A stretch of 59,423 nt of DNA from an uncultured Clostridia bacterium (GTDB lineage Bacteria; Bacillota; Clostridia; Lachnospirales; Anaerotignaceae): positions 1 through 59,423 of the forward strand of contig CALWLF010000115.1 in the NCBI GenBank assembly GCA_944381455.1, in the 5' to 3' direction. Made by a program: the position numbers and the translations under genes. Position 1 is the stretch's first letter. Each line of letters opens with the position of its first letter. This document shows, in pieces, positions 5,536-22,007 of the stretch. Below the pieces are notes generated by a model. That model did not search any database. It had not been told where the DNA came from and worked only from the letters and a program-made list of their open reading frames with translations.

Positions 5536-5575
5536 CTTATCCTCCGTCGATTTATTACAAATTTATTACAATACG

Positions 5576-5604
5576 ATTATACTTTGATTGCAAAGCAGTG
5601 TCAA
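5576..5604 (-). promoter_or_regulatory. consensus sigma-A promoter of the NlpC/P60 gene
   Basis: Minus strand: -35 TTGACA (5599-5604), 17 bp, -10 TATAAT (5576-5581). It is a full consensus match about 40 bp upstream of the start codon, implying a strong promoter. Confidence 0.85.
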
Positions 5605-5802
5605 CCGGATTTTTCCATTCTGCAAAATTTCCCGGATTTTTTGGAGATTTCCACAAAAAAAAGAACCTAATCCAGAAAAAAAGCATCCTTTTTTGTAACA
5701 AAGTTGTAATAATCTCAACTGCCTGTTCTTTATTTCCCGTTGTCTGCCGCCAGCTTCCTGACTGAAAACAGTTCCTGTAAAGTGATTTTTATCTAAAAAC
5801 AG

Positions 5803-5829
5803 AAAAAAACCGCTGCATTTGCAGCGGTT
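5803..5829 (-). terminator. terminator of the tRNA transcript
   Basis: Perfect 9-bp stem AACCGCTGC (5808-5816) / GCAGCGGTT (5821-5829) with a 4-nt loop. On the minus strand a run of seven T follows. It lies directly after the tRNA-Gly 3' end. Confidence 0.9.
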
Positions 5830-5832
5830 AAA

Positions 5833-5903
5833 AGCGGATGACGAGAATCGAACTCGCACGGTCAGCTTGGGAAGCTGAAGTTCTACCACTAAACTACATC
5901 CGC
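5833..5903 (-). tRNA. tRNA-Gly (anticodon CCC)
   Basis: On the minus strand a complete 71-nt cloverleaf: acceptor GCGGATG/CATCCGC, D-stem GTTT/GAAC, anticodon stem TCAGC/GCTGA with loop TTCCCAA (anticodon CCC, reading GGG), T-arm with TTCGATT, and discriminator U as usual for bacterial tRNA-Gly. The CCA end is not encoded. It is the second gene of a two-tRNA transcript. Confidence 0.93.
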
Positions 5904-5913
5904 AAAAGAAAAG

Positions 5914-5986
5914 TGGAAACGACAGGGCTCGAACCTGCGACCTATAGCGTGTGAAGCTACCGCTCTCCCTGCTGAGCTACGTTTCC
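5914..5986 (-). tRNA. tRNA-Val (anticodon CAC)
   Basis: On the minus strand a complete 73-nt cloverleaf: acceptor GGAAACG/CGTTTCC, D-stem GCTC/GAGC, anticodon stem GTAGC/GCTAT with loop TTCACAC (anticodon CAC, reading GUG), T-loop TTCGAGC, discriminator A. CCA is not encoded. It is 10 nt upstream of tRNA-Gly and driven by the promoter at 6006-6034. The phage-like module ends about 70 bp away; I found no duplicated tRNA fragment at that module's other end. Confidence 0.93.
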
Positions 5987-6105: not shown

Positions 6106-6678
6106 TTACTGATAGAGACCGGCCCGGTCGTTAATAACCAGCACCCGCACAGCCGTTTCTGTCAAAGAAAGAGAGTTTCCATCCCCACTTAAAAATCCTT
6201 TTTCCATCAGTTTTTCTATGGTAGCCCTGCCCCACTGAGGGATTTCTTCTATGGTCTGGTAAACTGTTTCCATTTCTTCTTCCTCCTCTTGTCTTTCCAC
6301 CCAGCAAAAATTTTCGTCCACTTCAAAATGAGGCATATCCGGAGTCTGCCAGCTGCCACCCCAGGTGATGCCAAGCGACATGCCAATCTCTCCTGCCCGC
6401 TGCAAAACGGCAACATCATATAAGTCCTGCGGCGGACTGCAAGCAATATCCCAAGCACGTCTTGAGGTATGGCGGCTATTTTTGGTCCACGTCACCACCT
6501 GGCCCGGTGTCGTTCTTCCTTGGGCATAAAGTGCATTTTGCCGTTCTTGAGAGCGATAGGTTTCTGTCAAAAAAATATCCACGCCGGCTTTTTTACACTG
6601 TTCCAAAAATGCCAGGCAGGCTTTTTGCGCTTCTTTCGTTAAAGCCGAAATATCTCGGCAAGTTTCTGTCTCACTCAT
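6106..6678 (-). CDS. Phage endolysin, M15-type peptidoglycan peptidase (VanY/L-Ala-D-Glu peptidase-like)
   Basis: A 190-residue lysis enzyme. I start it at ATG 6678 (MSETETC), preceded by AAAGGGGGAGG; a longer frame upstream overlaps the previous gene and lacks a better site. Residues ~5-130 form an M15 zinc peptidase domain: SRHTSRRAWDI supplies the HxxxxxxxD metal ligands and DMPHFEV the last His. The C-terminal ~45 residues (PQWGRATIEKLMEKG, then LTETAVRVLVINDRAGLY) match a small module common at the end of clostridial phage endolysins. There is no signal peptide, so release needs a holin, and two small membrane proteins lie immediately upstream. It is the last gene of the phage operon. 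Confidence 0.9.
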   Translation of the reverse strand: MSETETCRDISALTKEAQKACLAFLEQCKKAGVDIFLTETYRSQERQNALYAQGRTTPGQVVTWTKNSRHTSRRAWDIACSPPQDLYDVAVLQRAGEIGMSLGITWGGSWQTPDMPHFEVDENFCWVERQEEEEEMETVYQTIEEIPQWGRATIEKLMEKGFLSGDGNSLSLTETAVRVLVINDRAGLYQ

Positions 6679-6844
6679 GGCCCTCCCCCTTTTCTGCCGT
6701 GGTAACGCCACCCAGATACCCGATCAATCCGCTGCCAATGGCCATCGATAAGTTCTCCTGCCCGTAAAAGACAGCAGCAATCAGGGCAATGCCGCAAATG
6801 CAAATGACTGTCAGCTCCTGAATGTTTAGCATTTCAAATTTCAT
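6671..6844 (-). CDS. Small membrane protein of the lysis cassette (holin-like)
   Basis: A 57-residue protein, shorter than most gene finders report. It starts MKFEMLNIQEL, has one clear membrane segment (LTVICICGIALIAAVFY) and a second Gly-rich weakly hydrophobic stretch (AIGSGLIGYLGGV), and ends with a charged tail (AEKGEGHE). Its ATG overlaps the stop of the upstream gene (ATGA at 6841-6844), and its own end overlaps the endolysin start by 8 nt, so the three are translationally coupled. Size, membrane segment and position before the endolysin fit a small phage holin or holin partner. I do not recognise an exact family. Confidence 0.75.
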   Translation of the reverse strand: MKFEMLNIQELTVICICGIALIAAVFYGQENLSMAIGSGLIGYLGGVTTAEKGEGHE

Positions 6845-8194: not shown

Positions 8195-8556
8195 TAGCTA
8201 TACACCCCCACAATGCATCCCGTTGTCACATAGGTGGGTGTTTCCGTTTCGAAGGAAATGCCGCGATACGCATTGGTCAATTTAGAATCACCAAAACCGA
8301 TTTTACCTGTTCCCCCTTGAGAAATGGGCAGCGGACTTTGGGGCATGCTGTCCCAGGAAGAGTGCTCATGATCTGCTTCTGCTGCCCCCACTTGTGCTGC
8401 CGTCACCTGATGGGGATTATTGGTGTCCGCTTCATGATCCTCTCTTTTTTTCAGCTCTTCATCCAAAATATCGGCATTTTGGTTAAAATCCTCAATGTTG
8501 TAATAATCCTCGCTGTCTGGTTTAATCAAATCATAATTTGCTGTATACGTTGCCAT
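8194..8556 (-). CDS. Short tail-fiber-like protein
   Basis: A 120-residue protein. The N-terminus (YDLIKPDSEDYYNIEDFNQN, then ADILDEELKK) is the baseplate-attachment type found at the start of many Firmicute phage fibers. It is followed by DTNNPHQVTAAQVGA, a motif repeated in long fibers but present here only once, and a short C-terminal beta part. Compared with the several-hundred-residue fibers of related phages this is a stub, which fits a reduced particle. Start and stop each overlap the neighbours by one base, so it is tightly coupled. Confidence 0.8.
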   Translation of the reverse strand: MATYTANYDLIKPDSEDYYNIEDFNQNADILDEELKKREDHEADTNNPHQVTAAQVGAAEADHEHSSWDSMPQSPLPISQGGTGKIGFGDSKLTNAYRGISFETETPTYVTTGCIVGVYS

Positions 8557-9095
8557 TATGCTGCATACGCCTCCTCACTCAACTGCCGGTGCTGCCATGC
8601 CGCCAAGGCGCCATGGGTAAATGCTTCACACTGGCTGTACAAATTATATAGATACTCAATTCTCAGTTCCATATTTGCCGGCACCATATTGCGTCCCGTC
8701 GTTAAAAACAAAGCCGTTCTGGCCTCATACATTTTGTGCAGCGTCAGCTCCACCAAAAATCGGCTGCCATCAATCACCAGCGTATAAGGTGCATCTGCCA
8801 TCATGCTGGCCACCCATTGCCGAAAGGTCTCATCTGTAAAAGGAATGGCCGCATTCCAGTTGCTGAGGATTCTCGTTCTGCGTTCATCCAAAGAAAGGGT
8901 GCTGCCTGGCAATCCCATCATTTTTTCCCGCCGCCGGATGCCTTCCTCATTAGATGTCTCAATCCACTGGTTTTCTTCCACAAAGGAAAAAGCTTCCCAA
9001 AGCGCTTCGATCACATCGTCCTCTACCGCTGCAATGGCCTTGATTTCTTCATATTCCCGTAAAAAAGCAGGAAGATAGGAAAGATAGTTTTTCAC
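8556..9095 (-). CDS. xkdU: Baseplate protein, XkdU/DUF2313 (YmfQ-like)
   Basis: A 179-residue protein with the family's layout: an N-terminal SYLPAFLREYEEIKAI motif, a helical part (EEGIRRREKMMGL, LDERRTRILSNW) and a C-terminal beta domain. Members connect baseplate wedges to fibers in contractile phages (homologues of Mu gp48/YmfQ). It overlaps the upstream baseplate-J gene by 4 nt (ATGA) and precedes the fiber genes, the standard order in PBSX. Confidence 0.88.
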   Translation of the reverse strand: MKNYLSYLPAFLREYEEIKAIAAVEDDVIEALWEAFSFVEENQWIETSNEEGIRRREKMMGLPGSTLSLDERRTRILSNWNAAIPFTDETFRQWVASMMADAPYTLVIDGSRFLVELTLHKMYEARTALFLTTGRNMVPANMELRIEYLYNLYSQCEAFTHGALAAWQHRQLSEEAYAA

Positions 9096-10162
9096 GCCAG
9101 CGACACCTCCTTTAACACAGGGATGGCATAAGCGTCCAGCGTCAAATTGTCAGTGCTGCCATTGACCGTTGTCCCAAACACATCAATGATCCCAGGCAGT
9201 TCCAATACCCTGGTTTCCATTTGACTGATGCGCACCACCAGCTGGGTTTTCTCCTGCCATTGCCTAGCCAAAGAGTCCAGATATTCTTCCAAAAGCACCG
9301 TGACATCATCTGCCACATTGTCCCATCCGACGCCTTCTTCAAAGCTGATCTGCATCGTCACCGTCACTTCTGTCTCATCCACTGACGCCACTGTTACCGT
9401 GTGGCCAATGGGCGCAATGCCAACACCCGTACCCTGGGGCTGTGGATCCACTGCCGCCTGGATTTCTGCCACCAATTCGGCCGATGCCGCCCGGTATCCG
9501 TTGTTGATGATGACAATTTTCACCGTCCCTCCCCCTTGAAACACTGGGATCACCTTGCATCCGCCCACACTATCCAGGCTATTGACCTTTTCTTTGTAAT
9601 CGTCGATATTGCCGCCAAAGGCCATCTGCTGAAAACTGGCAAGATACCGGCTGCGCAGCGTTTCATCGTCCTCTTCTTCTTCTCCGTAAAGCACAAATTC
9701 CACCGTCTCTGCCACAGCCAGCCCTTCCATATAATCGACAGGAATCACCCGCCCCAGATAACTGTTGCCAATTTCCCCTGCCGTTTCGCATGTCAGCTCA
9801 TAAACGCCTGTTTCCAGTTTTTTTGTTGCCACAAAATTGAGCCCGCCGCCGGAAAATCTGGCGCCCAGTGAAATGTCTACCATCTGCTGCTCCAACCCAT
9901 AAAATTTGCCTTTCACAATGGCCTTTACAGCGTCTTTGCGGATGATATTGCGTTCTGCCGCCCGTCTGGTCAAGTCTTCCCCTGTGGCAGTATCTCCAAA
10001 GGTCCGATCCAACAGCAGCTCCATGGCCAAATACAGCTGGGCGCTTTCTGCCGCATTGGGCGCCAGCGTGTCATAGATGATGCTGCCTTGCCGCTTGTCC
10101 ATGGTGCGGTCAATTTGGGCCAGCTTTTCTTCCATCAGTGTTTCAAAGGTTTTCCATTCCAA
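9092..10162 (-). CDS. xkdT: Baseplate J-like protein (XkdT)
   Basis: A 356-residue homologue of the gpJ/gp6 wedge protein that forms the outer baseplate of contractile tails. The typical N-terminus (RQGSIIYDTLAPNAAESAQL, then YLAMELLLDRTFGDTATG) and the central DDETLRSRYLASFQQMAFGG motif are clear, and the C-terminal half is the baseplate-J beta region. The length is normal for XkdT. It overlaps XkdS by 20 nt and XkdU by 4 nt. Confidence 0.95.
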   Translation of the reverse strand: MEWKTFETLMEEKLAQIDRTMDKRQGSIIYDTLAPNAAESAQLYLAMELLLDRTFGDTATGEDLTRRAAERNIIRKDAVKAIVKGKFYGLEQQMVDISLGARFSGGGLNFVATKKLETGVYELTCETAGEIGNSYLGRVIPVDYMEGLAVAETVEFVLYGEEEEDDETLRSRYLASFQQMAFGGNIDDYKEKVNSLDSVGGCKVIPVFQGGGTVKIVIINNGYRAASAELVAEIQAAVDPQPQGTGVGIAPIGHTVTVASVDETEVTVTMQISFEEGVGWDNVADDVTVLLEEYLDSLARQWQEKTQLVVRISQMETRVLELPGIIDVFGTTVNGSTDNLTLDAYAIPVLKEVSLA

Positions 10163-10553
10163 TGCTGCTCACCTCCCATTCCTGTTCCAATACGCCCTCT
10201 TTTGTCACCACCGAAAAAGAGAGGGAAAGATGGTTTCGCTTCCCCATCACTTCCATGTCCCTCACTTCCTTCACCCGGTCATCCACCAGCAGTGCCTCTT
10301 GGATGTAGGAGGCCGCCTTCAGCTCTGCCTCACGAACCCCAATGCCCATCAGCTCATGGAGCTGGCTGCCAAAGGACCAGTCATAGATCTCATAGGCATA
10401 CCGTTCTGTGGTCAGTAAGATCTCCACTGCCTGCTCCATGGCAGCTTGCCCGCTGATAAAGCCCATAATCCGCTTGTTTTCCTTATCCAGCCGATAAGTT
10501 TTGCTCCCATTGGCTGCCGTCGAAACGGCCGATGCCGTCTTTTCTGGTATCAT
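10143..10553 (-). CDS. xkdS: Baseplate protein XkdS (DUF2634, gp25-like)
   Basis: A 136-residue protein of the DUF2634/gp25-like group that anchors sheath and wedge in the inner baseplate. Characteristic features are the central ILLTTERYAYEIYDWSFGSQ motif and ELMGIGVREAELKAASYIQE. Start and stop overlap the neighbours (4 nt with XkdR, 20 nt with XkdT), consistent with coupled translation. Confidence 0.92.
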   Translation of the reverse strand: MIPEKTASAVSTAANGSKTYRLDKENKRIMGFISGQAAMEQAVEILLTTERYAYEIYDWSFGSQLHELMGIGVREAELKAASYIQEALLVDDRVKEVRDMEVMGKRNHLSLSFSVVTKEGVLEQEWEVSSIGMENL

Positions 10554-10915
10554 GGCCTCACCACCCGATCCAATACGAAAAATCTCTGTCCGCCCTGCAT
10601 TCTCAGCATCAATACCTGCTCTCCTTTTTTCAACTCATTGTGTACCACCACCGTTTTGTTTCCTGTGATGCCATGGCTGTGGCTGCCGTCGCCGCAGTTG
10701 GCGCTTTCTGTTTGGTGGTGCACTTCCATCACCATCTCTCGCTTGGCCACTGCCGTCGATAGATATAACAGTTCTTCCGTCAGCAGCAGCCGCTGGTCTG
10801 CCAAAATTTGCAGCGGATTTTCTTCCATCACAACGCCAAACAGCAGCTTCATCGGATAAGTGCTTTCCCCAGCCTCCACCGCCGCCTTTTGCACCAATCG
10901 CAGCAATTCTTCCAT
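10550..10915 (-). CDS. xkdR: Baseplate/spike-associated protein XkdR (DUF2577)
   Basis: A 121-residue DUF2577 protein. The small OB-like fold with HHQTESANCGDGSHSHGITG in the middle and a C-terminal GEQVLMLRMQGGQRFFVLDR is typical. Members cap or complete the central spike in PBSX-type tails. It follows the coiled-coil gene by 12 bp; in canonical PBSX clusters it directly follows XkdQ, so here an extra gene is interposed. Confidence 0.88.
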   Translation of the reverse strand: MEELLRLVQKAAVEAGESTYPMKLLFGVVMEENPLQILADQRLLLTEELLYLSTAVAKREMVMEVHHQTESANCGDGSHSHGITGNKTVVVHNELKKGEQVLMLRMQGGQRFFVLDRVVRP

Positions 10916-10927
10916 CGTTTTTCCTCC

Positions 10928-11551
10928 TTAGTAATGTACGCCGCTGCAGCCGGCGCCCAACGCCTGCTCCAGCTCCTCTGTCAGCATTTGGATCAGCTGC
11001 TGCCATCCTGCCCCTTGCTGCAGCGTGATGTTGTTATAAAATGCCACCGATGACTGCCCCGTCTGTTCGATGGAAGAAACGTGTTTTGTTTCTTTTTCCT
11101 TTTCCAAAAAGAAGCTGCGCACTTCCTGCTCCAGCCGTTCTTTTTGCTGCTCCCTTTGCCGGTCAGTTTCTTGCAGCGTCCGCTCCACCTCATCCTTTCC
11201 CTGCTGTATGTCCAAGAACGACTCCTGTTTCCAAAAGGGGATTTGCTCTTTCGTCCTTTCCCAGATGGAGGGCAAAGCGCTCCTGCGTTCCGTCTGCTCC
11301 CTTTCCTTTCTCCCCCGCCGCTCAAAGGGATTCCAAACCGTAACGTCAGCATATATTGGCAGCCTCTGCTCCACCTCTGCCTCTTTGGCCTGTTGCTTCA
11401 TGGCCTGGATGACGGCCGTTTTCTGTTCCAGCCGTCTTTCTATGGTATGCCATTGCTGCAATATCGTCGTTGGAAATGCCTCAGATGCTTGCGGTTTTCC
11501 CAATAGAGCCAATAGCTCTTCCAACTCCCATTCCTTCAATTTCTCTTCCAT
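10928..11551 (-). CDS. Coiled-coil phage protein between hub and XkdR; candidate miniature tape measure
   Basis: A 207-residue, very Glu/Lys/Gln-rich protein. Residues 1-65 are helical (LKEWELEELLALLG, IERRLEQKTAVIQAMKQQAK), 66-105 are a basic, Trp/Pro-containing link (VWNPFERRGRKE, FWKQESF), 106-155 a strong coiled coil (DEVERTLQETDRQREQQKE, LEQEVRSFFLEKEKETK), and the last 45 residues (VAFYNNITLQQG, then LIQMLTEELEQAL) resemble the terminal segment of some phage tape-measure proteins. It is not part of the standard PBSX order, and the usual tape measure is absent from the cluster. A short ruler or tail-lumen protein is my inference; a chaperone or spike accessory is also possible. Confidence 0.55.
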   Translation of the reverse strand: MEEKLKEWELEELLALLGKPQASEAFPTTILQQWHTIERRLEQKTAVIQAMKQQAKEAEVEQRLPIYADVTVWNPFERRGRKEREQTERRSALPSIWERTKEQIPFWKQESFLDIQQGKDEVERTLQETDRQREQQKERLEQEVRSFFLEKEKETKHVSSIEQTGQSSVAFYNNITLQQGAGWQQLIQMLTEELEQALGAGCSGVHY

Positions 11552-11562
11552 TGGACTCCCCC

Positions 11563-12531
11563 TTATTCTGCCAGGTTAATGCGTCCGCCCTTGACACAAA
11601 GGTCCATCCGGTGCCCCTTCTCCCCAAACCGGTGCTGCACCCATTCCACCATCATCGCTTGATTGTAAAGCACATCTCCCGTCTGTTCTATGGTCACCGT
11701 AATGGTGGTACCGCCCCGGATGGCACAGTCGCCCAAGGCGTCATAAAACACCAGCTTTCGCCAGACCACGGCACTTTCTTCCAGCAATACCTGGGCCTTT
11801 TGCGCCCCGTTTTCCTCTTCCTGCACCGTTCCTGTCAGCTGCAATACACCCCAGCGGGCAATGGCGTCTTCCTGCTTGGCCAAATATTCTGTTACATTTT
11901 CCTTCTTTGCGGAGCTGGTCAGACGCACCTGGTTATATGTGCCCCGGTCAATGGTGCTTTCGTAAGTGAAATTTTCCGCGTTGGCCTCTGTCAGCAAATA
12001 ATCGCTCCAAAGTTCTTCTGCCTGCCGCAAACAAATGGCGCCCCCGTCATCATAAAGCACATACTGCCGCCCTGTGTTGGCATAGGTGTCATCAATGGCC
12101 CTTTGTAAAATATCTAACAGCGGCATATCATCTTCCACTCGAATGCCAAACAAAAATCCGCTGTCGGAAATGGTCCCCGTTTTCAACCGGTAATCGCCGC
12201 AAACTTCTTTTACCATGTCAGAGGCTTTTTTGTTTTGAAAGATATAGCTGGCCTTGTTTTTCAAATACCGCAGCTGATCATAGGCGCAGACGGCAATATG
12301 CTCCTCCTTGTCCCTCTTTTTAGAAAACACATAGCCCAAAAAGCAGAGCACTTCTCCCCAGTAAATCCGCACTTCGTTTCCTTCCTGAAAGGAGATCACA
12401 TCGTCCTTTGCCACCGTAAAGACGGCCTTCGTTGGCGCTCCCACCCGGTACCTGGTGATGACGGCTTCTCCCACCACCACCGGTTGGTACGTCACACCGT
12501 CACAATCCAGCTCCACCAACAGCTCACTCAA
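11563..12531 (-). CDS. xkdQ: Tail hub protein XkdQ-like
   Basis: A 322-residue protein of the XkdQ/YqbQ family, related to the gpD/gp27 hub that joins tail tube to spike. Recognised by an N-terminal beta domain (APTKAVFTVAKDD, FQEGNEVRIYWG), the AYDQLRYLKNKASYIFQNK motif, and a C-terminal beta barrel ending in GHRMDLCVKGGRINL. The length is normal. It overlaps the LysM gene by 8 nt. Confidence 0.93.
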   Translation of the reverse strand: MSELLVELDCDGVTYQPVVVGEAVITRYRVGAPTKAVFTVAKDDVISFQEGNEVRIYWGEVLCFLGYVFSKKRDKEEHIAVCAYDQLRYLKNKASYIFQNKKASDMVKEVCGDYRLKTGTISDSGFLFGIRVEDDMPLLDILQRAIDDTYANTGRQYVLYDDGGAICLRQAEELWSDYLLTEANAENFTYESTIDRGTYNQVRLTSSAKKENVTEYLAKQEDAIARWGVLQLTGTVQEEENGAQKAQVLLEESAVVWRKLVFYDALGDCAIRGGTTITVTIEQTGDVLYNQAMMVEWVQHRFGEKGHRMDLCVKGGRINLAE

Positions 12532-13156
12532 ACAATATCACCTGCCCTGGATAAATCAAATTGGGATTGGTAATGCCGTTGGCCTTTGCAATATCATAAC
12601 AGCGGCTGCCATCGTTTAGCTTCGTTTTGCAAATCCCCCAAAGGGTATCGCCGCTTTTTACCGTATAGCTGCTGGGTGCCTCCCTTTGGCTTTCCCGTTC
12701 TGTTTTTGTTTCCGTCGAAAGAGCAGTGCGCATGGTCTTTGCCTCTTTGTATTCCCGCAGCATAAGATCCACCACCAGGTCATAGCCATGGGCCGCCTCT
12801 TCTGTCACCGTAAATTGCTCAATGGTCACCATCAGCTGTGTCACCTGCCTGCTTCTTTCATAGGGCAAATGGTCCCGCACCACCTGAAATAACACGGCCT
12901 TTTGGGCTTCCGCCATCACTTTCAGCTGTTCCAGTAAGAAAAACGGCTCCTCCATCTGTCCGTCCTGGCTGTAAAACGGCGTTTTCATACCGGGAAATAC
13001 CGTCTGAAATTGAATTTTTGTCAGCTGCATGGGATTGATTTTGCTGCATTGCTCCATGTTCACCAGCTGAAACTGGCGGTTTTGCCCCTCCGTTTTCCAA
13101 ACCACTTTTTCCGGCGCCACCGGCAGCAGCAGTCCGCCTAAATAAAACAAATACAT
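12524..13156 (-). CDS. xkdP: LysM tail/baseplate protein, XkdP-like
   Basis: A 210-residue protein with an N-terminal XkdP-type domain and a C-terminal LysM module at about 160-209 (YTVKSGDTLWGICKTKL, ITNPNLIYPGQVILF). XkdP sits under the hub and links it to the tube. In PBSX, phage Mu relatives and other contractile phages the tape-measure gene lies between the chaperone and this gene. Here only 11 bp separate its start from the end of the frameshifted chaperone frame, so the tape measure is precisely missing. Confidence 0.92.
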   Translation of the reverse strand: MYLFYLGGLLLPVAPEKVVWKTEGQNRQFQLVNMEQCSKINPMQLTKIQFQTVFPGMKTPFYSQDGQMEEPFFLLEQLKVMAEAQKAVLFQVVRDHLPYERSRQVTQLMVTIEQFTVTEEAAHGYDLVVDLMLREYKEAKTMRTALSTETKTERESQREAPSSYTVKSGDTLWGICKTKLNDGSRCYDIAKANGITNPNLIYPGQVILFE

Positions 13157-13167
13157 GGCCTCCCCCC

Positions 13168-13320
13168 TTACTGTACCCTCTTTTTCAACTCAATGGCAGC
13201 AATCAAAAATGCCCGTTCCCGCCTGGACATCTGCAAAAATGCCCGTGGCGTAATGGAGAAAAAATGGAGGGCGAAACAGGCGTATACCGCCAGGTAATCG
13301 CCCTCCAAAATCAGTTTTTT
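13168..13320 (-). CDS. -1 frameshift extension of the tail assembly chaperone
   Basis: The upstream chaperone frame ends GCA AAA AAC TGA. The heptamer A AAA AAC at 13314-13320 is a canonical -1 slippery site directly before the stop. Slipping back one base opens a 48-codon frame to TAA at 13168-13170. The added peptide (LILEGDYLAVYACFALHF, then SITPRAFLQMSRRERAFLIA) has the helix and R/K-R-E-x-A-F-x-I/L-A-A pattern of the extensions seen in phage gpG/gpGT-type chaperones. The fused product would be about 177 residues. Confidence 0.8.
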   Translation of the reverse strand, partial: KKLILEGDYLAVYACFALHFFSITPRAFLQMSRRERAFLIAAIELKKRVQ

Positions 13321-13700
13321 GCCTCATCGGCCAGCTGCCGCTCCGTCTCTCCAAACCCATTGACTTCCTCTGCCTGGCGCACCAAAAAAGCATATTCGCC
13401 GCCGTTTAACATGGCCTTCAGCAGCGCAGCGCCGCCCATCACGCCATAACTGTCTTGTAACGCTGCGTCTTTCAAATCTGGATACACCACCGTCTCTTCG
13501 CATAACCTGCCATAATAGCGAAACACATCCAGTGCGCCGCCTTCTGTACAGCTGCGGCGGATCTCCTCTTCCTTTGCCGCCGTCATCGGTCTTAACACCC
13601 ATGCCACCGGCGCTCCGTTTTCTACAAACCGCTGGCTGATGACCACAGTTCTTTTTTCTGCCCTCTGGCAGTTCTCTCTTAAAAACAGTTCCAATCCCAT
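13311..13700 (-). CDS. xkdN: Tail assembly chaperone XkdN-like (short product)
   Basis: A 129-residue XkdN-type chaperone that binds tape measure and tube protein during tail assembly. Start ATG 13700 with GGAG seven bases upstream. The core WVLRPMTAAKEEEIRRSC and VYPDLKDAALQDSYGVMG is typical. It ends exactly at a -1 slippery heptamer, so a longer gpGT-like form is expected from the same start. The usual partner, a tape-measure gene immediately downstream, is not there. Confidence 0.9.
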   Translation of the reverse strand: MGLELFLRENCQRAEKRTVVISQRFVENGAPVAWVLRPMTAAKEEEIRRSCTEGGALDVFRYYGRLCEETVVYPDLKDAALQDSYGVMGGAALLKAMLNGGEYAFLVRQAEEVNGFGETERQLADEAKN

Positions 13701-13753
13701 GCTCGTTCTCCTTTTTTGGCGGCGGCATCGAAGGCCGCCGCCCCATGCTCGTT
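13696..13753. repeat. GC-rich hairpin flanked by a 12-bp direct repeat between tube and chaperone genes
   Basis: A perfect 9-bp stem GGCGGCGGC (13718-13726) / GCCGCCGCC (13734-13742) with a 7-nt loop, lying in the 51-bp gap. The 12-mer CCCATGCTCGTT occurs on both sides (13696-13707 and 13742-13753). No U-tract follows on either strand, so it is not a classical terminator. It may set the tube:chaperone ratio by RNA processing or partial termination, which is inferred. Confidence 0.5.
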
Positions 13754-14219
13754 ACATTCCGGCCAGCGCCGTAAACCGTTCTGGCATTTCCCAATCTTCA
13801 AAGGTAAATTCCAGCTCTTCTTCCAGATACTCGGCGTTGGCATCAAATTTTGCCAGCACACCGCCGTTTAAATTGCAGTCTTTGAGCACAATGGTCTGCC
13901 GCCCCACGCTGCTGGAAGGATCTTCGTTTGTCACCTGAATGTCAAAATAAAGGTCCTCCCCCTTTTCTTTAAACTGATACAACACTTCCCGAAAAATAGA
14001 GGTGTTGTAGTGGAAGGTGGCCTTGCCGGTGCCCTTCCAGCCAACGGCCTTGTTCCCCTTTCCTGTTTTGCCCAAAATAGGCACTTCCTGCTTTGTCTTT
14101 TCCATCTTTGCTTCCAAAGAGATGGCCTGCATCAAGTGATGCCGCTTGCCATCCATGGTTACATAACAATCCGCCAAGGATGCACAAATGGCATCTCTGG
14201 CATTCATCATCTGCCCCAT
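13752..14219 (-). CDS. xkdM: Phage tail tube protein XkdM-like
   Basis: A 155-residue tube subunit (XkdM/YqbM family). Features are the N-terminal ARDAICASLADCYVTMDGKR, a central ILGKTGKGNKAVGWKGTGKA loop and the C-terminal beta strand with LEEELEFTFEDWEMPERF. Start ATG 14219 has AAAGGAGGG four bases upstream, the strong translation expected for a major tail protein. It follows the sheath gene by 15 bp, the order found in all contractile tails of this class. Confidence 0.95.
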   Translation of the reverse strand: MGQMMNARDAICASLADCYVTMDGKRHHLMQAISLEAKMEKTKQEVPILGKTGKGNKAVGWKGTGKATFHYNTSIFREVLYQFKEKGEDLYFDIQVTNEDPSSSVGRQTIVLKDCNLNGGVLAKFDANAEYLEEELEFTFEDWEMPERFTALAGM

Positions 14220-14234
14220 AAAACCCTCCTTTCA

Positions 14235-15521
14235 TCACTGCACAATGACGGTCATATAAAGCTTGCTCATGGCACAAACGGGTGTGATGGGATTGGTCAC
14301 TGCCACACTTTTTTTGTCTTTTCCAAGCTGCACCACCACTTCATCTGCCACCACGTCCTCAATGGCGCCCAGTGCCGCCAGCTGCCGGTCATAGGTGATA
14401 ATGTCGTTCCAAAACGCAATGCGGCCGCTGTTGTTGTTTTGCACCTTACCCAAATAGCCTGTGTTAAACAGCACTGCAATGTCATTGCCAATCTGGTCCA
14501 GCACCCGTACCACCTGGTTGGAAGAAAAATCTTCGCCTTTGTCCTGGCTAAACTCCGTAAAGGAATTGATGTCCTCCAGCACCCGGATTTCTTCTCCCAC
14601 CCGGTGCAGCACAAAGCCTCCGTCTTTGACGGTGTCCTCCAGTTCTTTCTGTGTCAAATCGCACACCGGCGTATAACTGCCGTCGTAAATCATGTTGGTG
14701 TTGCTTTTGTTGATTTCGCATCCGGCGCTGGCGCCAACTACCCAAGGCACCAAGGCCGCATCGCCTTCTTCTGCTTTCGTTTCCAGCCGGATGATGCCTT
14801 CGTGGTTGCCTTCCGCCTTGTAAAGCACCGTTTGAAACTTTCTGCCATAGTCCTCTCGCATCTGCTTGGTATAAGTGATATATAACTGGCAGATGTCTGC
14901 CTCTGTAGAAAGGCATCCCAGGGTGTTGAACCCATAGCTTTCCAGTGCGCCCAGCATGGCGCTGTGTTCTGCCGCCGTCACCGTTCCGTCGCTGCCGCCG
15001 CTTAATGGCTTTGTTCCGGCTGCCAAAGTTGTTTCTTTGTCAAAAACAACAAAATCGTTTTCCTTTAACTCCTCGTAAGAAGTGACTGCTTGGCTGTCGT
15101 ATTTTTTGCCGTCCACCATGGTTTCCACCACGAAACTGCCGCTGCTGCCTGTCACCACAACAGAAATGGCGTTTCCCCGCACCCCGGGATATTTTGCCGT
15201 TGCCCAGTCGCAGCTGGCCTTTGCACCGCCTTGATTCAATCGGTATACATAGGCCTCTTTTGCGTGCAAAAACAGTTCCCGCAATGGCCGCATTTCCTCT
15301 GCCGCATAGTCATACCCAAATACGGCCATGGTGTCCGTCAAAAATGTGTTGCCATCCACATATTGCACCTGTTCTTCCGGTCCCCATCCCAGGCTGATCC
15401 CCAACGCCGCCACACCGCGGTCGCTGAGGGTTGCTGTGGCCTTTGCTGCGCTGACAAAGTTGATGTAACTGCCAGGCAGCACCTTGTTTTCCGTAATAAA
15501 TGTTCCTCCGCCTAATGCCAT
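14235..15521 (-). CDS. xkdK: Phage tail sheath protein XkdK-like
   Basis: A 428-residue contractile sheath protein. The N-terminus (GGGTFITENKVLPGSYINFV) and the domain around LPVPG-like SDRGVAALGISLGWGP match XkdK, and the C-terminal part with GRIAFWNDIITYDRQL and an acidic handshake strand is complete. The presence of an intact sheath means the encoded tail is contractile rather than a plain siphophage tail. The length is close to PBSX XkdK. Confidence 0.97.
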   Translation of the reverse strand: MALGGGTFITENKVLPGSYINFVSAAKATATLSDRGVAALGISLGWGPEEQVQYVDGNTFLTDTMAVFGYDYAAEEMRPLRELFLHAKEAYVYRLNQGGAKASCDWATAKYPGVRGNAISVVVTGSSGSFVVETMVDGKKYDSQAVTSYEELKENDFVVFDKETTLAAGTKPLSGGSDGTVTAAEHSAMLGALESYGFNTLGCLSTEADICQLYITYTKQMREDYGRKFQTVLYKAEGNHEGIIRLETKAEEGDAALVPWVVGASAGCEINKSNTNMIYDGSYTPVCDLTQKELEDTVKDGGFVLHRVGEEIRVLEDINSFTEFSQDKGEDFSSNQVVRVLDQIGNDIAVLFNTGYLGKVQNNNSGRIAFWNDIITYDRQLAALGAIEDVVADEVVVQLGKDKKSVAVTNPITPVCAMSKLYMTVIVQ

Positions 15522-15525
15522 CCTT

Positions 15526-15927
15526 TCACCTTTCTTTCCATTCCAACTGCTCCATCCAGTCGCTTTCTTCTTCTGCTCTCCATCCCATCAGCAAAAAGCT
15601 GCCTTCCCAGTGGACTGTCTCCTCTTCCACCCAGGTTTTCACATTGCCTGGCCGCACCGGCGCCCCTTCCAGGTCCACCTGTGCCAGCGCCTGCCGCATC
15701 TTCTCTTCTGCCAGTTCCCCCTCTCCCATTTTGCCATAATGGGAAACCCGGTAGAAAAACCGCAGCTGCACACGCCGCCCCAACAGCGGCTTTTCCTCTG
15801 TCCGCTCCCAAAGGAGGAAAAGACAAGGCCGCTTGACGGTCGTCTCCTGCCATTTCGTGTATAGGGGTAATGATGGATACGCCTGATGGAGGGCCTTGGC
15901 CAATGCCTGCGTCAATGCTTCTTTCAT
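15526..15927 (-). CDS. Tail terminator/completion-type protein (DUF6838/YqbJ-like)
   Basis: A 133-residue protein directly upstream of the sheath gene. The sequence pattern (LTQALAKALHQAYPSLPLYT, RPCLFLLWERTEEKP, GRRVQLRFFYRVSHYG) fits the small alpha/beta proteins that cap the tail and join it to the head in PBSX/skin elements. It overlaps the head-closure gene by 4 nt. The family name is from gene order and pattern; the capping role is inferred. Confidence 0.75.
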   Translation of the reverse strand: MKEALTQALAKALHQAYPSLPLYTKWQETTVKRPCLFLLWERTEEKPLLGRRVQLRFFYRVSHYGKMGEGELAEEKMRQALAQVDLEGAPVRPGNVKTWVEEETVHWEGSFLLMGWRAEEESDWMEQLEWKER

Positions 15928-16274
15928 GCCTGCTCCTCCCCGTATGGAACCAGCACCGTTTCCCGGTGGGTTTGGTATCTCCTGCTTTCTCCTGCTTGGC
16001 GGTACTGCTTACTGTCAATCCGCACCACCGCTCCCAGCGGCATCTCCACCTCCGCTGCCGTAAACAGCACCACCGTTCCTTTGGGAAACAATAAGTCCCC
16101 TCCCTTGTTTCCTTCTCTCAACCCGGCATAAGAAATCCGGCAGGGCACCTGCCCTTCCAGCAGCACTTCTTTTTGTTCCACCACGCCGTTTTCCCCCAGC
16201 ACTTCTTGCCAGCCGTAAATATCACACCGCTGCTCCATCCATCGCTCCAACTGCCGCTTTGCTCTTGTCACCAT
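15924..16274 (-). CDS. Head closure/neck protein (YqbH/XkdH-like, DUF3599)
   Basis: A 116-residue protein with a beta-barrel pattern (RCDIYGWQEVLGENGVVEQK, then VLLEGQVPCRISYAG and LFPKGTVVLFTAAEVEMP). This is the shape of the SPP1 gp16-like head-closure group as represented by XkdH/YqbH. Such proteins form the ring beneath the connector and hold DNA in. It overlaps the connector gene by 7 nt. Confidence 0.8.
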   Translation of the reverse strand: MVTRAKRQLERWMEQRCDIYGWQEVLGENGVVEQKEVLLEGQVPCRISYAGLREGNKGGDLLFPKGTVVLFTAAEVEMPLGAVVRIDSKQYRQAGESRRYQTHRETVLVPYGEEQA

Positions 16275-16573
16275 TTTCCTCTCCTAAATAACTGCAGCTG
16301 CTCTAAAAAAGGGGTGGCCCATGTGCCTTCGGCCGTTTCAAATTCCACCGTGGCGTCTCCTTCTGTCAAACGCTTCACACCGCCTTGCCCGGCTCGCTCA
16401 CAAAGGGAATGGGCCATTTCCACACAAACTTCCAATAGCTCCTCTGGAACGGCAGTCAAACGGCAGTAGTTTTTGATGTAGGCCATCGCTTCCTCCACTG
16501 CAAACTCTGCCAGGTTCTCATCCTCTTTGGGGCACAGCACCTTCAGCCGCTGCAATACCTGCTCTTTATCCAT
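16268..16573 (-). CDS. Head-tail connector protein (YqbG/gp6-like)
   Basis: A 101-residue alpha-helical protein (VLQRLKVLCPKEDENLAEFA, then VEEAMAYIKNYCRL and LLEVCVEMAHSLCERA) of the gp6/gp15/YqbG adaptor class that docks on the portal ring. It lies 15 bp after the capsid gene and overlaps the head-closure gene, as in PBSX and SPP1-like phages. Confidence 0.85.
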   Translation of the reverse strand: MDKEQVLQRLKVLCPKEDENLAEFAVEEAMAYIKNYCRLTAVPEELLEVCVEMAHSLCERAGQGGVKRLTEGDATVEFETAEGTWATPFLEQLQLFRRGKW

Positions 16574-16588
16574 GCCATTCCCCTCTTC

Positions 16589-17467
16589 TTACGCCGTCTT
16601 TGGACTGACATAAATGCCCTTTGCCTTGTTTTCATATACAAAGGCATCATGGTACAGCCGAAACTGGAAAAGCCAAGCATCCAGCTTCTGGTTTTCATCG
16701 GGAGAAAACACCTTCGGTAAAATAAATTTCTTTGCCTGCACCAGCGCCTGGGGATATACCACCATAAAATTCATTTCTTTGCCTGAAGTATCTTTTGTAT
16801 ATCCCCAGGTGGTGGAACCATCATTTAAGGTAATGGCCGTGTAAAATCTGGACTTCGGCACATAAATCACCTTCATGTTGTTGTAGCCGTTGACCACGGC
16901 ATTGATGATGTCATCGCTGCCCCATTGCCGGTTCAGCGCTTTGTTGAGGGCCGGCTTTAAGTCGCTGTTGACAAACAGCACACGCCCTTCCTGGGGCACC
17001 TCGTTTTCGTCCAGCACAGCCACTGCCTCGTCAATGGCTTCCAAAATCGTGTCCTTGGTCAGCGCAGCCGCATCGCCCACCGTCACACCGGTGCTGGAGG
17101 CATATTTTGCAAATCGATAGGCGTCCAGCTCTGGAATCACCCATTCTCGCATGAAGTTTCCCGTCACAGAACCAAATACCACGCCCAGCATTTCCTCATC
17201 ATCCATCCGGTCAATGGAAATTTCTTTGCCTCGTTCCTGGCTCAAACGCATGGTTTCCCAGGTGGCCGTGATATCGCCTTTGGGATATCCTGCCGTTCTG
17301 GAATAATTGCCAAGGCCGGTGGTTGCCACCTTCAGCACCTTCACCTCTGCACTGTTGGTAAAATCCACCATGGTGTTGGTGTCCAACAACTCCGTTACGC
17401 TTTCGCTCCGGTAAATGTCATCAATTACCGGTAAAAATTTTGTTGCCAAATTCACTGTGTTTGCCAT
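16589..17467 (-). CDS. Major capsid protein (HK97 fold)
   Basis: A 292-residue major head protein of the XkdG/YqbE type. The N-terminus is short (ATKFLPVIDDIYRSESVTE), with no long prohead delta domain, and then come the E-loop region (SRTAGYPKGDITATWETMRL) and the P/A domains (VLFVNSDLKPALNKALNRQW, KVIYVPKSRFYT). An ordinary-length intact capsid indicates that the element still makes heads, unlike tailocins. It sits 89 bp after the scaffold gene, with its own good ribosome site. Confidence 0.95.
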   Translation of the reverse strand: MANTVNLATKFLPVIDDIYRSESVTELLDTNTMVDFTNSAEVKVLKVATTGLGNYSRTAGYPKGDITATWETMRLSQERGKEISIDRMDDEEMLGVVFGSVTGNFMREWVIPELDAYRFAKYASSTGVTVGDAAALTKDTILEAIDEAVAVLDENEVPQEGRVLFVNSDLKPALNKALNRQWGSDDIINAVVNGYNNMKVIYVPKSRFYTAITLNDGSTTWGYTKDTSGKEMNFMVVYPQALVQAKKFILPKVFSPDENQKLDAWLFQFRLYHDAFVYENKAKGIYVSPKTA

Positions 17468-17556: not shown

Positions 17557-18132
17557 TTATCCTCTCAGCTTTGCCCCCCTTCTGGCCCCGGCCACAAACC
17601 GGTCATTTTCCTGTTTTCTGGTGCCCCATTGCATTCCTGTGCCTTCCACCTTTGCCTGTCCTTTTAAAAACTGCCCCAATGCCTCTCTGGCCCCAGTAAA
17701 ATCCACTGCCAGCAGCGTTCCGTTTTCATCTCGAAGCAAGTCCTTTTCTTCCAAAAAGAAGAGCACCCTGCTTCCTTCTTGACTGCCGTACCGTTTCTTT
17801 GCCATCTGCATCAGCAGCGCTTCTTCCTCTTTTGCCTCTTCTTTTGGCTGCACAGCGCCATGTTTTTCGCCTATCTCCAATGCCGCATCTTCTTTCTCCT
17901 TTTCTGCCTCTAAAAAGCCGGTCTCTTTTGGCCCTTCCTCTTTTGCTTCTCGTTCCATTGGCCGTCTTGTTTCTTTTTCTTCTTCTTTTGGAAACACAGT
18001 CCGCTCTTCTTCCCTGGGCAAATATCCTTCCCAGTCTCCCTCTTCTTCCACCAAAATCCCAATCATGGCCTCAAAGGCGCTTTTGGCTGCCTGTAACTGT
18101 GTGATCCATTGTTCCATCTGCGCTTGCTTCAT
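17557..18132 (-). CDS. Putative capsid scaffolding protein
   Basis: A 191-residue, extremely charged protein. I start it at ATG 18132 (MKQAQMEQW), preceded by AAAGGGGA; the reading frame extends further upstream, but inside the portal gene. Residues 1-30 are helical, ~45-125 a Glu/Lys-rich low-complexity region (REEERTVFPKEEEKETRRP, AKEEEALLMQMAKKR), and the last 60 a compact domain (VLFFLEEKDLLRDENG, AREALGQFLKG). Position between portal and capsid plus acidic coiled-coil character fit a scaffold. It overlaps the portal 3' end by 62 nt. In PBSX this slot is XkdF, which also has a protease domain; none is visible here. Confidence 0.7.
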   Translation of the reverse strand: MKQAQMEQWITQLQAAKSAFEAMIGILVEEEGDWEGYLPREEERTVFPKEEEKETRRPMEREAKEEGPKETGFLEAEKEKEDAALEIGEKHGAVQPKEEAKEEEALLMQMAKKRYGSQEGSRVLFFLEEKDLLRDENGTLLAVDFTGAREALGQFLKGQAKVEGTGMQWGTRKQENDRFVAGARRGAKLRG

Positions 18133-19591
18133 CTTCCATTTCCCCTTTCTCTTCCTCCATCTCCGACAATTCCCCTTCTCCGCTGATTTCTTCCACAAAG
18201 GGATGCTTGCTGATCAGCGTCTCTCTGCCCAGCAGATCTTTGCTCATTTCAATCATCTGCACCGTTTCATAATCGTTGGTAATCATGTTCTTTCTCAGCT
18301 CCACCCGGATGTCTTTGGCATCAAAGGATGTTCCGTGCTCTCGGTTCCAGTCCTCCACCAAAAACGAGAAAAACTCCCGCATGGCTTTTTTCAGCCTGGC
18401 AGCCACACTGTCGGCCTTCAAATCCAGCAGCGTGTATTGATACCGTAACGATACGCCGCTGGGCGCATTGCCCAGCCGGTCCAAATCCGTATCCACCCCC
18501 TGCCCAAACTGAAAAATATCCCTGCGCAGCATCTTCAAATATTCCAGCCTTCCTCCCATGGAAAGGTCCGTCTGCTTTGCCTCTACGCTGCCGTTGGCGT
18601 CGGAAATATGCACGGCTTTATTGATTTGCAGCTTTCTTGTAATGGCCGATGCCGTCTCTCCGCCATAGCCTTGGATCACCCAGTAGAGATCCACCAAATC
18701 CAGCAGATTGTTCACGCCTTCGCTGCTGATAAAGTCATAAGCGTCAATCAGCCCCTTGACTGCCTCCAAATCTGTCGTGCCTCGAATGTTGTTTTTTAAC
18801 AATAAAAACGGAACTCTTCCCCAGCTGTGCCGCTCTCTTTTTTTCTCAAACTGCTCCTCCCCGCCCACAGTCCACCAATGGGGCGCCGGATTGTACCGCA
18901 TCGAAGCATCCACCACCAGCCGGTGCTGATCATTTTCTGTAAAATAAGTCACCTCTTTGTCCGTCCACCATTCCACCTTCTTTCGCACAAACCGGCTGCC
19001 CTGCTCGTATTCCACCACGTCATAATAGCGGATGACCTGCTCCAGCTTGTCCTGCTTGTTGTCATCAAAAATGGGAATGATTTCATTGGCCGGCACAATG
19101 CAGTAGCAAAGTGTCCCATCTTCCTGATAATAAAAATGGATGCACTCAAACCCCTTGTTGCTGGCCCCTGTCAGCAATTCCTGAAACAATGCCTGAAACT
19201 CTTCTCCTGCCCATTCTTCCAACAGCGCCGCAAAGGCACGATCCTTGTTTTTCACCTGCAACACCGGCTTTCGTCCCAGTAAATAGCTGACTTTCTGGTC
19301 CACCAGCAGCCGGTGGAACCCGTTTGTCACATGATGGTTGCTCCGGTTGGGATTGGTAAAAACAGAAACCTGTTCCTGCTCTGCCTCATTGGTCTCCGAA
19401 ATTCTGCTGCGCCGAAAATCATGGTTTAAAATATCCTGCTCATATACATAATACCGCTCCCCCTCCTCCATCTTTCCCCGCCTGCCGCTTTCTTCCTCCT
19501 GCCAAATCAGCTTCATCAGCACATCGCCATCCTCCAATGGCTTCCCCGCCGAAAGCTTGGCATTTTCCCAGTCTCTCTTTGTCAAAAACAT
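18071..19591 (-). CDS. Portal protein, SPP1 gp6-like
   Basis: A 506-residue portal that forms the dodecameric DNA channel and docks the terminase. Diagnostic stretches are YLLGRKPVLQVKNK, ASNKGFECIHFYYQEDGTLC, PFLLLKNNIRGTTDLEAVK, the helical stem NLLDLVDLYWVIQGYGG and APSGVSLRYQYTLLDLKAD. The length is normal for SPP1/PBSX portals. The acidic C-terminus (EEISGEGELSEMEEEKGEME) overlaps the scaffold start. It follows the large terminase by 4 bp. Confidence 0.95.
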   Translation of the reverse strand: MFLTKRDWENAKLSAGKPLEDGDVLMKLIWQEEESGRRGKMEEGERYYVYEQDILNHDFRRSRISETNEAEQEQVSVFTNPNRSNHHVTNGFHRLLVDQKVSYLLGRKPVLQVKNKDRAFAALLEEWAGEEFQALFQELLTGASNKGFECIHFYYQEDGTLCYCIVPANEIIPIFDDNKQDKLEQVIRYYDVVEYEQGSRFVRKKVEWWTDKEVTYFTENDQHRLVVDASMRYNPAPHWWTVGGEEQFEKKRERHSWGRVPFLLLKNNIRGTTDLEAVKGLIDAYDFISSEGVNNLLDLVDLYWVIQGYGGETASAITRKLQINKAVHISDANGSVEAKQTDLSMGGRLEYLKMLRRDIFQFGQGVDTDLDRLGNAPSGVSLRYQYTLLDLKADSVAARLKKAMREFFSFLVEDWNREHGTSFDAKDIRVELRKNMITNDYETVQMIEMSKDLLGRETLISKHPFVEEISGEGELSEMEEEKGEMEDEASADGTMDHTVTGSQKRL

Positions 19592-19595
19592 TGCC

Positions 19596-20837
19596 TTACC
19601 TCACTTTCACCAAATCCATGTCAAACTGCCTGGAATAACGCACTGCATCAATGGCATGGTTGTCCTTGTCTGGAAACCGCCCCAAAAATGCACCGTTTTG
19701 GTCGCTTTCCAAATGGTATCCCAAAAACTCCTCTGCCGTCTTTGGGCAGCGCACCGGATCAATGACAATTTCCTCCATATCCTGTAACCACCGAATCCCA
19801 TATTCCACACTGCGCGGTCCCTTTCTGGCCCCAATGGCCGCAATGCCATAGCTGCAAAATTCTCCAATGCTTTTCGGCTCTGCGCTGTCGCAAATCACAA
19901 CACCGTTCTCTTTGTTTTCTTCTTGAATCAGCTTTGCCGCCTTCCGGTTGCTGAGTCCTGCCTGATGGATTTCATAAAAAATATAAAGCTTTCGCTTCTT
20001 CTTGTCGTAGTGGTTGACTGTGTAATGCAGAGGATCCACCGCATACCCCCAATCCAGCCCCCGGCTGATGTTCCAAAATGAGGCAATTTCCTCCTCAGAT
20101 AGTTCCCTCGTCACCACATTGGTAAATACCTGCCCCCGGCTTCCCGTCACTTCTCCCAAATATTCGTGCCGGTACACCATCTCGTCTTTTTTCTTCCATC
20201 GCTCCGCTTCCAGGAAAAACTGTTCTCCAAGCCAATGCCTCGGCACCTCCAAATAGGTGCTGTGATGGACCAGCCGCCCTTCCTCCGTTCCCACCAGCGC
20301 CCGGTTTACCCAGCTCATGGTGCTCCTTGGCGGATTAAAGGTGTAAAACACGGCAAAGGCATCGCCTCCTCGCATCAGTGTCTGGTTTAAACTGCGGATT
20401 TCTTCCATCCCCGAAAACTCATCCACTTCCTCATACCAAATCCATTTGGCATATCCCTTTGGAAACTTCAAGCTTTTTAACTTCTGCGGATTGTCTGCCC
20501 CCCGAAACAAAATCTTCTGCCCCGTCGGCCGGTAAATGAGCGCAGGCTCGCTCATTTTCTCCTCCCAGTACGCTTCCACCCCCAGCATTCCAATGGCCCA
20601 TCGCATCTGTTCCACCACCGAGGCCCGCAAATGTGCGCCCACCTTCCGCAGCACCACCGCATGGGTATTGGGCTGACGCATCATCCCCACAATCAGCTCC
20701 AGCGACACAAAAGAGCTTTTGCAACTGCCCCTGCCTCCTTTCAGCCAAAAATGGGTTGCTTTTTGCTGCTTCACCTGTTGGTGAACGGGAAAAAACGCCG
20801 GTGCCATCACCTCCTGCAGCCTAATCATTGCCGTCAC
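19596..20837 (-). CDS. xtmB: Terminase large subunit (XtmB-like)
   Basis: A 413-residue DNA-packaging motor. The ATPase domain has a terminase-type Walker A (GGRGSCKSS) and Walker B (IWYEEVDEF). The nuclease domain has the expected acidic positions in LDWGYAVDPLHY, VICDSAEPKSIGEF and DNHAIDAVRYS. All catalytic signatures look intact, so packaging should be functional. It overlaps the small subunit by 17 nt. The type matches PBSX/SPP1 headful-packaging enzymes, which can package host DNA; that is relevant for the possible GTA-like nature. Confidence 0.96.
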   Translation of the reverse strand: MTAMIRLQEVMAPAFFPVHQQVKQQKATHFWLKGGRGSCKSSFVSLELIVGMMRQPNTHAVVLRKVGAHLRASVVEQMRWAIGMLGVEAYWEEKMSEPALIYRPTGQKILFRGADNPQKLKSLKFPKGYAKWIWYEEVDEFSGMEEIRSLNQTLMRGGDAFAVFYTFNPPRSTMSWVNRALVGTEEGRLVHHSTYLEVPRHWLGEQFFLEAERWKKKDEMVYRHEYLGEVTGSRGQVFTNVVTRELSEEEIASFWNISRGLDWGYAVDPLHYTVNHYDKKKRKLYIFYEIHQAGLSNRKAAKLIQEENKENGVVICDSAEPKSIGEFCSYGIAAIGARKGPRSVEYGIRWLQDMEEIVIDPVRCPKTAEEFLGYHLESDQNGAFLGRFPDKDNHAIDAVRYSRQFDMDLVKVR

Positions 20838-21168
20838 CTGCCGGAATGTCGTCTAAAATCTGAATCAGCCCCAAAGCCGCCACATTGGTGTCTGCCTTGT
20901 ATTTTCCCTTCAGTTCAAAATACAGCTTGATGGCCGGAATGTTTCCCTTGCTGCATTGGTCAATCAGCGCCTTCCATACCACGGAAATTTCGCCGTACGT
21001 CCTCTTTTCCACCATGGTTTCCAAGTACTTGCGAAACGGCGCCTCACCCATCCATTTGTAAAACACCGTCATCCCAATGCCCACTTCACTGCATAGCCGC
21101 TCAAAATCCCCGTCAAAATTTTGGTCAAGCAGCTTCTGTGCCAATTTCTTTTGCTTTGGATTCACCAC
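20821..21168 (-). CDS. xtmA: Terminase small subunit, with an apparent frameshift at its 5' end
   Basis: A DNA-recognition subunit of phBC6A51-type: VNPKQKKLAQKLLDQ, a helix-turn-helix around LCSEVGIGMTVFYKWM, then a helical oligomerisation part. In-frame translation can begin at GTG 21168, which has no Shine-Dalgarno. A perfect site (AAAGGAGGTC) instead precedes ATG 21205, whose frame closes after 26 codons. Removing one G from the G5 run (plus-strand C5, 21192-21196) would join the ATG to this frame, giving MAKGETAAAERYVVNPKQKK, a natural terminase start. So the gene carries a 1-nt homopolymer insertion (real, phase-variable or a sequencing error) or uses a weak GTG. Confidence 0.85.
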   Translation of the reverse strand: MVNPKQKKLAQKLLDQNFDGDFERLCSEVGIGMTVFYKWMGEAPFRKYLETMVEKRTYGEISVVWKALIDQCSKGNIPAIKLYFELKGKYKADTNVAALGLIQILDDIPAGDGND

Positions 21169-21674: not shown

Positions 21675-21980
21675 TCAAAAAACATGCATTCTTTCATGCA
21701 GCAGCACAATTTCTGGCAGTATGGCTTGTTCCATCGGCTCTTTTTGTTGCGAAACGCAACAAGAGGGGAAAAAATAAAAATTGATTTCCTCAGGCCGCAG
21801 CTGCAACACTTCTGCCAAGCGTTCCACTTCGTTGCTTTTAAAAACGGAATACCCATTGAGCTTGTTGTTCAGCGCATCGGTACTTATGGCAATCAGCTTT
21901 GCCAGTTTCCGATAGGATAAATGTTTCTTTTGCAATAATTTTTTCAGTCTCTCCAGCTCCTGATATTTTTTCACCTTCAT
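21675..21980 (-). CDS. XRE-family regulator, first gene of the phage operon
   Basis: A 101-residue DNA-binding protein. Start at ATG 21980 (MKVKKYQELERLKKLL) with AAAGGAG seven bases upstream. Helix-turn-helix at about 12-65 (LSYRKLAKLIAISTDALNNK, ERLAEVLQLRPEEIN), followed by a Phe/Cys-rich link (FYFFPSCCVS) and a short tail. This architecture is common for Cro- or antirepressor-like proteins of small clostridial phages. It is transcribed from the TTGACA-17-TAGGGT promoter at 22008-22036, which faces the divergent repressor gene. Confidence 0.85.
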   Translation of the reverse strand: MKVKKYQELERLKKLLQKKHLSYRKLAKLIAISTDALNNKLNGYSVFKSNEVERLAEVLQLRPEEINFYFFPSCCVSQQKEPMEQAILPEIVLLHERMHVF

Positions 21981-22007
21981 ATCCAAGCTCCTTTCTCTTT
22001 TTTTCCT

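Follow-up and report, generated by a model that had tools for sequence, protein, structure and literature searches.

The window, that is, the whole stretch of 59,423 nucleotides that we analyzed from an uncultured Clostridia bacterium of the family Anaerotignaceae (contig CALWLF010000115.1), contains one phage-like block of genes. All of them are on the minus strand, from a probable small terminase through an endolysin. The first gene encodes a helix-turn-helix (HTH) protein (20821-21168, Pfam PF13022), which we assigned as the probable small terminase (TerS) based on its position and conservation. It is followed by the large terminase (TerL; 19596-20837, PF04466), an SPP1 gp6-like portal (18071-19591, PF05133), the major capsid protein (16589-17467, phrog_422), and the head-tail adaptors together with a phrog_525 protein (15526-16573, assigned by phrog matches). 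The tail genes begin with the contractile sheath (14235-15521, phrog_279) and the tail tube (13752-14219, phrog_365). After these come an XkdN-like tail assembly chaperone (13311-13700, phrog_389, E 1e-35), an XkdP-like LysM protein (12524-13156, phrog_380 with E 8e-45, and Pfam LysM), an XkdQ-like hub protein (11563-12531, phrog_400) and a gene for a protein of 207 aa (10928-11551). The block continues with an XkdR/DUF2577-like protein (10550-10915), whose family name is based on its position and on phrog_579, a gp25-like baseplate wedge protein (10143-10553, phrog_120), a Baseplate J-like protein (9092-10162, phrog_6), a Tail protein I-like protein (8556-9095, phrog_521), a collagen-like protein, small genes and the endolysin (6106-6711, phrog_6523).

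Two further genes lie beside the packaging end. One encodes a Cro/C1-type HTH protein on the minus strand (21675-21986, Pfam HTH_26), a possible regulator that is conserved beside TerS in the class 1 loci described below. The other is a divergent small protein on the plus strand (22201-22548), a putative regulator with 86% identity in the congener G002. Genes for tRNA-Gly and tRNA-Val are found at the element's lysis end (window 5566-5986). The open reading frame at 5566-5889, which overlaps the tRNA-Gly gene (5833-5903), is probably spurious.

In PBSX, the tail genes have an order of the xkdM-N-P-Q-R-S-T type (tube, chaperone, LysM, hub and baseplate genes), and the tape measure protein (TMP), XkdO, lies between XkdN and XkdP. 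Based on reading frames and locus comparison, this canonical position is empty in the window (13157-13310, minus strand). The chaperone gene has a slippery site (A-AAA-AAC, in the context GC-A-AAA-AAC) at its 3' end, from which the -1 frame runs on as LILEGDYLAVYACFALHFFSITPRAFLQMSRRERAFLIAAIELKKRVQ until a stop at about 13168. Between the chaperone and XkdP in the window, we found only this -1 extension of the chaperone (13168-13310) and no reading frame that could encode a TMP. An earlier, sequence-only reading had given the same coordinates as ours for the end of the -1 frame (13168) and for the start of XkdP (13156), and had described the TMP as cleanly absent from this spot, with no remnant; on both points our analysis agrees. 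The same gap recurs in both congeners (140-143 bp) and measures 16-162 bp across ten loci of the window's type, and the arrangement is inherited. We rejected an assembly artefact as the cause of the gap because the arrangement is common to the congeners and to many species. The -1 extension is conserved in a congener: over its 48 codons, third positions account for 16 of the 21 base changes, and it looks to be under selection between these two genomes.

The search for a TMP was extended to whole genomes, as the sequence-only reading had proposed. Pfam PhageMin_Tail has no match anywhere in the window's genome, and a profile built from nine canonical TMPs of the family matches nothing in any of the genus's three genomes, the window's included. 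The latter profile does match 30 of the 58 family genomes. Congener G001 has a marginal PhageMin_Tail match (E 0.019, in a 711-aa frame) at a site apart from the element (C23:22516-22920, L031).

The sheath protein is present in 47 of the 58 family genomes, and we read about 50 loci of the family for their gene order. Canonical prophages have the order XkdN, TMP, XkdP, XkdQ, DUF2577. Two arrangements exist without the canonical TMP. Class 1 (genera g1, g9, g11 and g14), to which the window belongs, has the order tube, XkdN, XkdP, XkdQ, short gene, DUF2577. The order in class 2, a sister group (genera g2, g3, g4, g6 and g7), is tube, XkdN, XkdP, XkdQ, second XkdN, short gene, DUF2577. For genus g8 (L038, L039 and L041), XkdN was detected only after XkdQ.

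The presence of the short gene and that of the canonical TMP are mutually exclusive. Via the tube protein we fetched 160 loci, some of them public copies of loci that we had read before, and found the canonical TMP gap in 112 of them. XkdQ abuts or overlaps DUF2577 (gap ≤11 bp) in all 96 canonical-TMP loci where this was measurable. A gene of 195-445 aa separates XkdQ from DUF2577 in all 32 loci that lack the canonical TMP and have a sufficiently long contig. Fisher's test on 32 versus 94 loci gives p ~1e-30, although relatedness makes these loci non-independent. For 37 of the 160 loci, the HMM of the canonical arrangement gave no placement, in most cases because of a contig end. A permuted order is seen in at least four of these (L120, L133, L135 and L143, from Peptococcaceae-like genomes), with XkdQ, XkdP and DUF2577 first and the sheath, tube, gp25 and J genes later. 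DUF2577 is followed in L120 and L143 by a gene of 296-309 aa, whose end motif is like that of the short TMPs, and then by XkdN. These two loci appear to have host flanking genes in common and may represent another host-fixed element with a short ruler.

TMPs in phages are generally accompanied by a frameshifting chaperone. In the class 2 copies that we read, the XkdN at the old place has no slippery site, and the XkdN before the short gene retains the slippery site or a close variant, plus the -1 extension. It is thus the short gene that the frameshifting chaperone accompanies, and the two are adjacent in class 2 and in genus g8. In the window, the frameshifting chaperone is still located after the tube gene, two genes from the 207-aa gene. 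Short TMPs also occur at the canonical spot in two relatives (L034, 164 aa, and L064, 321 aa). The one in L064 (L064:5459-6424) has canonical N- and C-termini and zero hydrophobic segments, and is possibly an intermediate between long and short rulers.

We built an HMM from the last 60 residues of the nine canonical TMPs and ran it on 3237 open reading frames. The canonical TMPs ranked first, followed by the short TMP at the canonical spot in L034 (3e-6) and then by the short genes of L059, L061, L060, L065 and L066 (6e-6 to 5e-4). The class 2 short genes ranked below these (0.02-0.08). For the reverse comparison, we built one HMM each for class 1, for class 2 and for the window's genus, and every time the best outside match was a TMP at the canonical position (L033, 0.0043; L064, 0.0019; and L064, 0.0059, respectively). 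Using hhalign, the short-gene and canonical TMP profiles aligned with a probability of 82.9% (E 9.2e-6); the 45 aligned columns extend to the C-terminus of each. Across the 58 whole genomes, the short-gene profile retrieved only the short genes, five TMPs (at their C-termini) and one fragment at a contig edge (G040:C118), which is also matched by the canonical TMP profile. Outside the ~45 C-terminal residues, the body of the short genes could not be aligned to canonical TMPs. Because the 207-aa protein by itself matches the canonical TMP HMM weakly (E 39), its assignment rests on its orthologues. Through their profile, and over the 45 C-terminal columns, the set to which it belongs is similar in sequence to TMPs.

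The 207-aa protein has no Pfam match at E 0.01 and no hydrophobic segment. None of the 20 short genes tested has a stretch as hydrophobic as a transmembrane helix. Canonical TMPs differ in this respect, with 3-7 such stretches in eight of the nine examined (the exception is the 321-aa protein of L064, at the canonical place). For the 207-aa protein, AlphaFold predicts a chain of helices with low confidence (pLDDT 55), and the model is too uncertain for a fold search. Among the element proteins compared, the 207-aa protein is the least conserved, with 43% identity between the congeners and a saturated dS, which precludes a measure of selection on its gene. Aromatic residues in the short genes showed a weak periodicity in pooled data and none in the window's genus, and we give this feature no weight as evidence. 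One short TMP from an IMG/VR contig (L199:4079-4954) contains tandem repeats of ~12 residues of the type SSFSSVYDNNE, which could be ruler units.

Based on the mutual exclusivity, the C-terminal motif, the pairing with the chaperone in class 2 and the short TMPs at the old spot, we consider it highly probable that the gene at 10928-11551 encodes a shortened and relocated TMP, and that the ruler of this tail was moved and shrunk rather than lost. The 207-aa product would then be the ruler of the tail. It would be anchored by its C-terminus in the hub and spike, the products of the adjacent XkdQ and baseplate genes, and its helical, fast-evolving body would extend up the tube lumen. The frameshifted XkdN chaperone would assist it in templating polymerization of the tube. 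Taking 1.7 Å per residue from the diffocin TMP (PMC10996793), a protein of 207 residues would span about 35 nm, or 31 nm with 1.5 Å as the alternative value. A short tail of about 30-35 nm with a defined length is, in our estimate, a better prediction than one of undefined length.

Alternatively, the 207-aa protein may be an adaptor of the hub or spike that does not measure length and whose C-terminal anchor was borrowed from a TMP or resembles one. The short genes have only the ~45 C-terminal residues in common with TMPs, which another hub-binding protein could also have; no alignment of their body to canonical TMPs was possible, and the 207-aa gene adjoins XkdQ. However, we find this unlikely given that the distribution of the short gene is complementary to that of the TMP, that the frameshifting chaperone is immediately upstream of it in class 2, and that the short TMPs at the canonical spot in L034 and L064 have the same C-terminus.

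The sequence-only reading had instead proposed that there is no ruler. The TMP would have been deleted, the tail length would be undefined or minimal and set by the kinetics of tube and terminator, and the 207-aa gene would be an unrelated accessory. An empty canonical position and a genome without a match to TMP families are what such a loss would leave. However, a gene with a TMP-type C-terminus is found in just those loci that have no canonical TMP, and the frameshifting chaperone is kept under selection. We rate the absence of a ruler as slightly less likely still than a hub or spike adaptor, and the earlier claim of an undefined or minimal length is probably wrong. That reading had named a TMP encoded elsewhere and co-expressed as the finding that would speak against it. 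In a relocated TMP at 10928-11551, which carries the TMP C-terminal motif via the profile of its set, this is most likely what the locus holds, with co-expression inferred from the shared gene block.

The element with its relocated TMP is located at the same site in congener G002, with mazF-alr-lolA-yjeF on one side and NlpC/cellulase genes on the other. Between these two genomes, dS is about equal in the element and in the flanking genes. Where measurable, dN/dS of the element genes is 0.01-0.16 for most, with a maximum of 0.29 (p133). The sites are also conserved across genera. The class 2 and g8 elements of genera g2, g3, g4 and g8 adjoin rnr, plus smpB and the tmRNA gene where the contig allows, and the class 1 elements of g11 and g14 adjoin tRNA-Arg, plus ETF genes where these were read. 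In the tail-gene tree, the relocated elements form two fully supported clades that are largely sorted by host genus, and the canonical prophages of one genus are scattered. Searches found no tyrosine integrase on the window contig, no recognizable replication genes in the block, and no close relative of XkdP among viral contigs. LexA-type boxes are not in excess over chance in the window. Near the packaging end of class 2 elements (L083:6108-6746), we noted by eye a LexA/CI-type repressor-like protein with an HTH and an S24-like half. It is very improbable that the block is a decaying prophage remnant whose TMP was lost through degradation: the lack of a tyrosine integrase on the contig and of recognized replication genes would fit, but the structural genes are open in both the window and the congener, dN/dS is low, the same gene order occurs in >30 loci from many species, and the site is conserved.

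Because of the synteny with the congener, the conserved sites across genera, the dS and dN/dS values, the tree and the lack of a tyrosine integrase, the window cluster fits a host-fixed, PBSX-like phage-like element rather than a mobile prophage. Head, packaging and tail genes are fixed in the host lineage with no tyrosine integrase on the contig, as is expected of a gene transfer agent, and judging from its genes the cluster is perhaps one. More tentatively, and short of an even chance in our judgment, these elements could form a family of contractile-tailed gene transfer agents that were domesticated by their hosts, in ~10 genera of one Clostridia family, with a TMP of ~200-450 residues that has no membrane region and is encoded beside the hub gene. 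A literature search (mostly non-subscription journals) on Anaerotignum prophages and domesticated contractile elements with odd tape measures returned no matching title or abstract.

The finding points to a contractile, host-fixed phage-like element that is widespread in Clostridia, and it suggests that a TMP absent from an annotation may only have moved and shrunk. Natural rulers of ~200 to 450 residues, in contractile tails that are homologous in other respects, provide a series for tests of how length is set. The same series could show on which part of the TMP DNA delivery depends.

A report on FpGTA of Faecalibacterium, which is described as podovirus-like and was shown to package DNA, names no more than two gene-transfer-agent-like systems in Gram-positive bacteria (PMC12946183). 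Like FpGTA, the window element is a host-fixed phage-like cluster of gut Clostridia; unlike it, the window element encodes a contractile tail. The diffocin of Clostridioides difficile is, as we predict for the product of the window element, a contractile particle with a TMP. The diffocin TMP has ~817 aa, a length of ~1388 Å and five predicted transmembrane helices, and it is anchored on the spike through helices at its C-terminus (PMC10996793). Diffocin differs in being headless and in having a long TMP with transmembrane helices, of which the short rulers have zero. The window element resembles PBSX of Bacillus subtilis in its xkd-type tail order, its head and terminase genes and the lack of a recognized integrase on the window contig; it differs in that its TMP candidate is short and located after XkdQ, with no TMP in the slot between XkdN and XkdP. 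The canonical-TMP prophages of its own family (L033, L056, L063 and L067) have homologous tail genes and a related TMP C-terminus. In contrast to the relocated elements, their TMPs are mostly 560-734 aa long with 3-7 hydrophobic segments and are encoded at the usual place, and in the tree these prophages are not sorted by host genus.
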